Assembly (NCBI RefSeq): GCF_002153425.1 | Contig: NZ_KZ119600.1 | Coordinates: forward strand, 3,872,143 to 3,936,142 | DNA: 64,000 nucleotides | Direction: 5' to 3' | DNA from: Litchfieldia alkalitelluris | Lineage (GTDB): Bacteria; Bacillota; Bacilli; Bacillales; Salisediminibacteriaceae | In this document: positions 6,057 through 38,340 of the stretch, piece by piece | Layout: every line of letters starts with the position of its first letter | Position numbering within the stretch: position 1 is the stretch's first letter | The notes under the pieces: model-generated | The model's input: the letters and a program-made list of their open reading frames with translations, nothing else | What the model was told of the DNA's origin: nothing | Database searches by the model: none | Position numbers and translations under genes: made by a program

Positions 6057-6667
6057 TTAGGGGGGGCGGTGTAGCTGGTGTGGAAAGTGTAGCGAGATTT
6101 TGTATTCGAATGGGTGCCTAGAACGCATTTCTCAATAATGCGGACTAGATTTCACGGTTTCACTTACTCTCTTGGCCGCATTTCTCAATAATGCGGACTA
6201 CATTTCACGGTTTCACTTACTCTTGGCCGCATTTCTCAATAATCCTTAGCACATTTAAATCACTATCCAGTTTACATTTCCTAATGAGGACTCAAACCGC
6301 TTTGCTTCCTCAGTTCAGTCCACATTCTTTGAAAATGAGGACTCAAACCGCTTCACCTCCTCATTTCAGTCCGCATTTCGTGAAAATGAGGACTCAAACC
6401 GCTTCACCTCCTCATTTCAGTCCGCATTTCGTGAAAATGTGGACTCAAATCGCTTCACCTCCTCATTTCAGTCCGCATTTCGTGAAAATGTGGACTCAAA
6501 TCGCTTCACCTCCTCATTTCAGTCCACATTCTTTGAAAATGAGGACTCAAATCACCTCGATACCTCATTTCAGTCCACATTCTTTGAAAATGAAGACTCA
6601 AATCAAGCCGACACCCTCATTTCAGTCCCATTCTGAATTAGAAACCATTGCCCTCATCCCCCCCTAA
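6057..6667. repeat. Family B tandem hairpin array, locus 1 (51 bp period)
   Basis: Seven units recur at exactly 51 bp, marked by GGACT or AGACT at 6288, 6339, 6390, 6441, 6492, 6543 and 6594. Each unit holds TCCGCATTTCGTGAAAATG then GGACTCAAACCGC then CTCATTTCAGTCC, so AGTCC/GGACT and CATTT/AAATG arms pair with neighbours on either side. A divergent block at 6131-6250 carries GCGGACTA at 6140 and 6193 plus CTTGGCCGCATTTC, the version also found at 48.5 kb. The whole is flanked by a perfect 10 bp inverted repeat, TTAGGGGGGG at 6057-6066 and CCCCCCCTAA at 6658-6667. It is intergenic. Confidence 0.85.
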
Positions 6668-11950: not shown

Positions 11951-11986
11951 GAAAAGGGTACCCAATAAACAATATGGGTACCCTTC
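11951..11986 (-). terminator. Intrinsic terminator after the peroxiredoxin gene
   Basis: Perfect 11 bp stem, AAGGGTACCCA at 11954-11964 and TGGGTACCCTT at 11975-11985; on the minus strand it is followed by TTTTCC. It lies about 20 bp after the stop at 12004. Confidence 0.8.
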
Positions 11987-12003: not shown

Positions 12004-12471
12004 CTACACCAGTTTTTCCAATTGAGCAAACACTTCCTCATAATCTTCTTGTTTTTTCGCATCAAAGGCAGTGTTAACGTAAGTAACTATACCATCTTTA
12101 TTTATCACAAAAACCGAGCGGATGGCTGTCTCATTTTTTTCATGAAACACGCCATAATCCTTCACTGTCTGTTTGTGCCAGTCTGAAAGTAACGGATATG
12201 GCAATGTTCCGAGACTCGCTGCAAAAACATTATGGGCATAAATATGATCTACACTGATGGCTAAAACTTCTGCATTTAGTGTTTCAAACTTCTGATAGTC
12301 CTCTTTCCAAGAGGTGATTTCCTTGATTCAGCCAGGTGTGAAGTCAAGGGGATAAAAAGCAACGAGGACATTCTTCTTTCCTCTGTAATCTGACAAAGAT
12401 ATCTTTTCCTTTATGGTTGAAGATAGTTTAAATTCCGGCGCCTTTGAACCTACAATAATACTTTCACTCAC
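12004..12471 (-). CDS. Peroxiredoxin with in-frame UGA at the peroxidatic position (candidate selenoprotein)
   Basis: Reading from GTG at 12471 (GGAGG site 8 bases upstream) gives a complete 155-residue peroxiredoxin if one UGA, at 12330-12328 (codon 48), is read through. The frame is intact on both sides: SKAPEFKL near residue 9, FYPLDFTPG-(UGA)-IKEITSWKED, LAISVDHIYAHNVFAASLG, LPYPLLSDWHK and the active-site Arg118 in AIRSVFVI. The UGA replaces exactly the Cys of the family motif PxxxTxxC (Pro41, Thr45, position 48). The protein has no Cys anywhere, so without selenocysteine it has no redox residue. A SECIS-like hairpin follows the UGA. Ordinary gene callers would report only 12004-12204 or a pseudogene. 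The alternative is a recent Cys-to-stop mutation. If selenocysteine is inserted, it is a 1-Sec cytoplasmic peroxidase. Confidence 0.8.
12300..12330 (-). promoter_or_regulatory. Candidate bacterial SECIS element with UGA codon
   Basis: On the minus strand the UGA (12330-12328) is followed, after 13 bases, by a 6 bp perfect stem CCTCTT/AAGAGG with loop GGA at 12314-12300. There are 19 bases between the UGA and the loop, and the loop starts with G. The published bacterial SECIS model asks for a small apical loop with a G in its first two positions, roughly 16-37 bases after the UGA; this fits. The lower stem is weak. Confidence 0.6.
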
Positions 12472-12567
12472 ACATTCCACCTCCTCGGTGGCAAAAATAT
12501 AGATTGAATTTCTGTTATTAGTATTAACTTCAATCAGGGAATTTAGTACATTTCAAATACAGGACAA

Positions 12568-12597
12568 ACAAAAAACCACCCCGTATCCAGGATGGCT
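12568..12597 (-). terminator. Intrinsic terminator after the iron permease gene
   Basis: On the minus strand CCATCC pairs with GGGTGG (one G-U pair), followed by seven T or so. It lies about 20 bp after the stop at 12618. Confidence 0.75.
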
Positions 12598-12617
12598 TTT
12601 CACGTCACTACTATAAG

Positions 12618-38077: not shown

Positions 38078-38160
38078 AGTGGCAACCCGGCGATCATAGA
38101 CTTTAGTCCTTAGACCCGTAGCTTTGCGTCCTAACCTTTCAGCTAGTTTGCCCTTATCTC
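38078..38160 (-). ncRNA. Cyclic di-GMP-I (GEMM) riboswitch aptamer
   Basis: Read on the minus strand the block contains the GEMM landmarks in order: AAGGGCAAAC, GAAAGG tetraloop, GGACGCAAAGCTACGGG with the receptor CAAAGC, CTAAGG, and the 3' strand GCCGGGTTGCC. This matches the c-di-GMP-I riboswitch consensus by eye. The terminator hairpin downstream suggests control of transcription. The first gene downstream encodes a GGDEF-EAL protein, a common type of target. Confidence 0.9.
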
Positions 38161-38340
38161 TAGGTAATATCACCTATCTATTGGTAATTATAAGGTATAA
38201 CTGGTTAAAAAATCAATAATTATTTACAGAATTTGTCGGAAAATGTATAACGAAGTCGTTTTTTAATAGAATTCCGCAAAAATTTCCAGGTTTATATCGA
38301 ATGAAGCAGCAGGACACTAAAATGTTAACTTTAATCGATA

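Follow-up and report, generated by a model that had tools for sequence, protein, structure and literature searches.

Peroxiredoxins with selenocysteine (Sec, U) are an established selenoprotein family, tabulated as 'Peroxiredoxin (Prx)' with the motif TxxU and assigned to COG1225 or PF00578 in the accessible parts of two papers (PMC9312934, PMC13188914), and the PrxU model of NCBIfam (NF040737) likewise describes a Sec-peroxiredoxin. Among the cysteine enzymes, the 1-Cys peroxiredoxin AhpE is named among mycothiol-regulated proteins in the accessible text of PMC10950700. As far as the available sections of a 2006 survey go, Bacillales had three selenoproteins in three families, and every selenoproteome contained FdhA or SelD (PMC1794560). 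The accessible text of a 2026 review states that selenoproteins are rarely retained by aerobic bacteria (PMC13188914), and a 2016 survey, in its available parts, reports Sec users among aerobes (40.4%) as well as among anaerobes (35.8%) (PMC5029168). Here we describe a gene in the 4.88 Mb genome of Litchfieldia alkalitelluris, located in a stretch of 64,000 nucleotides (contig NZ_KZ119600.1, G000:C1:3872143-3936142; hereafter the window), which very probably encodes a further member of this kind: a small AhpE-like selenoprotein peroxiredoxin with Sec, at the in-frame UGA of codon 48, as the peroxidatic residue.

The gene lies on the minus strand at 12004..12471, starting with GTG at 12471 and stopping with TAG at 12006-12004, and between these there is a single TGA (12328..12330) in an otherwise intact frame. 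A first-pass annotation made from the DNA alone had described a 155-residue frame without Cys and with one UGA at 12330-12328 as its only lesion, and both the sequence and its translation bear this out. The annotation had also placed the UGA exactly on the Cys of the catalytic motif PxxxTxxC (P41, T45 and position 48), and the alignment with 33 relatives confirms that placement, as the U48 column holds Cys or UGA in every one of the 34 rows. The conserved peroxiredoxin arginine (R118) is invariant in the same rows. The protein obtained by reading through the UGA scores 126 bits against the Pfam domain AhpC-TSA (cut-off 26) over residues 7-131, and combines the domain, the PxxxTxx(C/U) motif, the conserved Arg and a peroxiredoxin fold. 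The fold model has a mean predicted local distance difference test (pLDDT) score of 96 and a predicted template modelling (pTM) score of 0.91, and it resembles many peroxiredoxins; among the 50 listed of 1394 structure matches the best two-way TM was to AhpE (0.90/0.91, with 33-34% identity). No NCBIfam model reached its cut-off for the window protein, even with the UGA read through.

Relatives were found by scanning genome contigs with window peptides taken away from the UGA, and the best 80 of 300 loci were kept. All ten of the closest named relatives, which are Bacillus relatives at 56-79% identity, had UGA at the position of codon 48 in frames otherwise open beyond it; the first-pass annotation had proposed exactly this comparison, and the codon is UGA and not TGC or TGT. 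Two genomes listed under the host's genus (G019, G020) are identical over 200 bases around the gene to the loci of Evansella sp. AB-P1 and E. tamaricis, which places the host in Evansella by that classification. The family search covered 35 genomes, of which 15 had a match (53-99% identity), and the order search covered 397 genomes, of which 32 had a match at E<=1e-60 with nine candidates scored per genome; each match contained one TGA. After pooling and removal of repeats there were 45 distinct proteins in 45 genomes, the window's included, all with UGA at this codon. While 53 fetched rows were located via the UGA motif itself, the closest-ten, family and order searches are evidence unconditioned by it. 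Because the same codon is UGA in every orthologue found, its occurrence is, judged from these comparisons, not due to chance. The remaining 70 of the kept loci, at 37-50% identity, had Cys in 63 cases and UGA in seven, and the in-frame UGA stands at a redox-active position where homologues have Cys.

The annotation had asked for selA, selB, selD and the Sec tRNA (tRNA-Sec) elsewhere in the genome, and all four were found above their cut-offs: selA with 527 bits (curated cut-off 268), selB with 389 bits (curated cut-off 242), selD with 413 bits (curated cut-off 125) and tRNA-Sec with 55.1 bits (cut-off 47), the last also called by ARAGORN as tRNA-SeC with anticodon tca. The complete set that is expected of a genome with selenoproteins was thus observed. 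The selD gene has an in-frame UGA of its own (SSKAGUGCKIGP), and a Sec-SelD fits the FdhA-or-SelD rule of the 2006 survey. Of the 14 control genomes, selB passed only in E. coli and M. jannaschii. To the first-pass annotation Sec use had appeared rare in Bacillaceae, a view that did not hold, as selB was over the cut-off in 29/35 genomes of the family and in 179/397 of the order (three candidates scored per genome in the order). The occurrence of the gene also follows that of selB, with selB present in nine of the ten named carriers, in all 15 family carriers (Fisher p 0.03) and, across the order, in 31/32 carriers compared to 148/365 non-carriers (Fisher p 8e-11, uncorrected for kinship).

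Just 3' of the UGA there is a hairpin, CCUCUU-GGA-AAGAGG (12300..12314, minus strand), which is likely a bacterial selenocysteine insertion sequence (SECIS) element. It starts 13 nt past the UGA. Stem pairing was complete in 41 distinct 48-nt rows (246/246 cells), and when the stem was slid by 1-3 columns pairing fell to 65-68%. In L148 and L151, both partners of two stem pairs had changed. None of 500 shuffles matched the pairing percentage or the covariation score, and six matched the two pairs with both-side changes. Two stem changes that alter the amino acid, in L116 (S to F) and L157 (E to G), still pair as U-G. Codon use also supports the hairpin: in 22 orthologues, 50 columns other than that of the UGA have a degenerate codon and an amino acid shared by 21 or more rows, and the only three of these that were codon-invariant (ACC, AAA and GAG) are all within the hairpin. 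The fourth degenerate hairpin codon, TCT, was found in 21/22 orthologues, and the exception retains pairing via U-G. In the wider set of 41 rows ACC does vary, its first base, which is outside the stem, being G in five and T in two. According to a figure legend in the accessible part of the 2026 review, bacterial SECIS elements have an apical loop of 3-9 nt with G in the first two loop positions, an upper stem of 4-16 bp, 16-37 nt from UGA to loop and a minimum free energy at or below -7.5 kcal/mol (PMC13188914, Fig. 2 legend). The hairpin here has a 3-nt loop, which is GGA in 41/41 distinct sequences, a stem of 6 bp and 19 nt between the UGA and the apical loop.

The part of the gene past the hairpin (85 codons) is under purifying selection in the relatives, with a ratio of nonsynonymous to synonymous substitution rates (dN/dS) of 0.015-0.19 in 9/13 pairs. 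For the three pairs that include the window gene we counted 41.5-45.5 synonymous against 18.5-28.3 other differences. A tree thinned to 67 rows, with 37 of the 45 orthologue proteins and 30 distant loci out of 70, united the 37 rows of Bacillus-type Sec forms in a single group (support 97/95). When Sec was treated as a label, the best tree had four changes, and as two of them are forced by well-supported branches, the Sec forms were gained or lost more than once.

The simplest alternative would be that a nonsense mutation made a pseudogene of a Cys-peroxiredoxin. TGC or TGT turns into TGA by a single-base change, Cys is present in most of the more distant loci, and one carrier, Pseudalkalibacillus salsuginis (G405; L025 = L133), had no selA, selB or tRNA-Sec over the cut-off in these searches. 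However, the same UGA in every orthologue of 45 genomes, the open frames and low dN/dS past it in the relatives, the complete Sec machinery in the genome and a hairpin whose base pairs are conserved make decay of the gene extremely improbable, and we rejected it. It is also very improbable that the UGA is read as another amino acid or serves as a regulated stop, with the hairpin acting as a read-through or regulatory signal instead of a SECIS element. RNA structure past a stop codon can promote read-through, and this hairpin has less stability than the SECIS model demands, but the UGA stands at the catalytic residue in all orthologues found, where only Sec or Cys would be useful, nearly all carriers in the order have selB, and the GGA loop and the spacing agree with the published model.

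Several observations nevertheless weigh against a selenoprotein. The tRNA-Sec score passed in five of the 14 control genomes, so that this score alone is unspecific. The genome of P. salsuginis is listed as 99% complete and holds the gene with both UGA and hairpin, with the top score of the order search; its decoding genes may have been lost or may fall in a gap of the assembly. As for selection, dS was saturated in 4/13 pairs, including all three with the window gene. The both-side changes in the stem are confined to two genomes of one genus and perhaps represent a single event, a slide by -1 also yields two both-side-changed pairs (one cell each, 67.5% paired), and there was no excess of further pair types over the shuffles. 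The energy of the hairpin is -6.0 kcal/mol over 45 nt from the UGA, short of the -7.5 limit, and reaches -7.8 only when 10 nt upstream and other stems are included, although the SECIS model may have used a stretch of different length. Such an energy is ordinary, as 39% of 752 sampled stretches of TGA plus 45 nt in the window reach it, and we rejected it as evidence. A loose loop-and-stem rule is satisfied by 15% of 2582 TGAs, and an Rfam scan of the gene matched no SECIS family, its four matches being far under their cut-offs. Even so, the selenoprotein reading is strongly supported by the conserved UGA, the decoding genes, the hairpin and the selection in the relatives, and the earlier proposal of a 1-Sec peroxidase gains strongly from the same evidence.

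According to the selenoprotein reading, SelB and tRNA-Sec would insert Sec at codon 48 under control of the in-gene SECIS hairpin, and the resulting selenolate would reduce hydrogen peroxide or organic hydroperoxides and be converted to a selenenic acid. Insertion of Sec would make the window form, which has no Cys at all, a 1-Sec enzyme. Because its chain lacks a second thiol, this form may be resolved by an outside thiol, by analogy with AhpE, and we take bacillithiol, thioredoxin or bacilliredoxin to be the candidates. Of the 45 orthologue proteins, 12 have no Cys; among the remaining 33, all but two have a Cys at U+98 to U+107, within the last helix of the fold model or immediately behind it, and this Cys may be a resolving residue in those lineages.

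The same genome holds a second likely Sec-peroxiredoxin (G000:C1:2283091-2283474; L170 4930-5580, minus strand), an AhpC-like protein with the motif FTFVUPTE and a hairpin with loop AGUU 3' of its UGA, which scored about 161 bits to both the AhpC and the PrxU models, below both cut-offs. In the order sample a second group of peroxiredoxin matches comprised 22 matches in 20 genomes (E 1e-36 to 1e-31), all with one TGA; selB was found in 19 of these genomes, and the twentieth, G232, shows no selB and has selA and tRNA-Sec. The decoding genes were not found in another genome, G017 (76% complete), which of the two UGA peroxiredoxins has just the second, at 39% identity. The formate dehydrogenases of the window's genome seem to be without Sec, since there was no in-frame stop in three matches to the alpha subunit at E<=1e-20 (L173, L175 and L177), one of them over the cut-off. 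A tentative and rather unlikely extension of these results would be that the Cys-free, AhpE-like peroxidase with one selenol, which exists as a Sec form only and is reduced by bacillithiol or bacilliredoxin, sustains Sec decoding in the order together with the second Sec-peroxiredoxin and Sec-SelD. Such a role would apply at least to genomes which, like that of the window, have formate dehydrogenase genes lacking an in-frame stop.

In the region of tRNA-Sec in this genome (G000:C1:2571330-2600955), the 3' end of tRNA-Sec (L017 9331-9423) is adjoined by a gene for a tyrosine integrase (L017 9546-10829; PF00589, 87 bits). About 29.5 kb beyond, the 3' part of tRNA-Sec recurs in diverged form (L189 9592-9656), at a place where ARAGORN detects no complete tRNA. 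The probable explanation is an integrated element that lies within the tRNA-Sec gene and provides the 3' end of that gene.

Around the peroxiredoxin gene, a ribosome-binding site AGGAGG (12480..12485, minus strand) stands 8 nt before the GTG, and 3' of the TAG there is a terminator-like inverted repeat followed by a T run (GGGTACCC...GGGTACCC TTTT; 11952..11985, minus strand), both read by eye and both in agreement with the good ribosome site and terminator that had been noted earlier. The neighbours are an ATP-binding cassette (ABC) permease gene upstream and a nagA-type gene on the other side. As another terminator-like repeat (12569..12599, minus strand; by eye) separates the gene from the ABC permease gene, the peroxiredoxin gene may be transcribed alone. 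The neighbourhood names no partner for the peroxiredoxin, because the pair of upstream neighbour genes recurs at L020 alone among the ten named loci. Elsewhere in the window we detected a cyclic di-GMP-I riboswitch (38078-38162, minus strand; 82.5 bits) and an open reading frame (ORF) on the plus strand (6191-6667) built of near-repeats of the type MRTQTASPPHFSPHFVK, which may not be a gene at all but repetitive DNA.

The expectation that gene callers would lose this gene was justified, in that without read-through the list of ORFs of at least 60 amino acids has here only a 66-amino-acid fragment started by TTG. Ordinary gene finding would split or drop this probable selenoenzyme subfamily, in a group where Sec decoding is common among the sampled genomes, and the subfamily bears on what preserves selenocysteine in bacteria living with oxygen. 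In the open-licence literature, of which the matches were partly visible, we found no report of the subfamily or of the selB frequency in the order, and term searches in the accessible parts of PMC12013277 and PMC5330540 gave nothing on Bacillus relatives.

Among the described systems, one of the closest is the bacterial Sec-peroxiredoxin with TxxU, to which the window protein can be likened by its tabulated description in the accessible sources, as both have the AhpC/TSA domain and, in the window protein very probably, Sec as the peroxidatic residue of a PxxxTxxU motif. The window's subfamily differs in having UGA in all members found and either no Cys or, in nearly all the others, a Cys near the last helix. 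Since Sec-peroxiredoxins of the TxxU kind are already established, we regard it as a new subfamily of Bacillus relatives within a known kind. The first-pass annotation had compared the protein with PrxU, which was right as to the kind of enzyme and wrong as to membership, as the score of 86.2 bits against a curated cut-off of 270, over only positions 35-170 of the 233 in the model, led us to reject the PrxU equivalog NF040737. In fold, by two-way TM among the matches listed, the protein comes closest to 1-Cys AhpE (PDB 4x0x, 5c04 and 5id2), with which it shares length, overall structure (TM 0.90/0.90-0.91, 33-34% identity), one catalytic residue without a resolving Cys and the conserved Arg, whereas the catalytic residue is Cys in AhpE and would be Sec here. 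The likeness to AhpE is not exclusive, however, as the lowest E-values among the 50 listed of 1394 structure matches belonged to 2-Cys PrxA, and the sequence-profile ranking placed a 2-Cys Prx (5zte) first, the peroxiredoxin-like 2ywn second and another 2-Cys Prx third, followed by AhpE (Rv2238c). To our knowledge, Bacillus relatives do not make mycothiol. By analogy with AhpE we infer that the window protein would be reduced by a low-molecular-weight thiol together with a redoxin.
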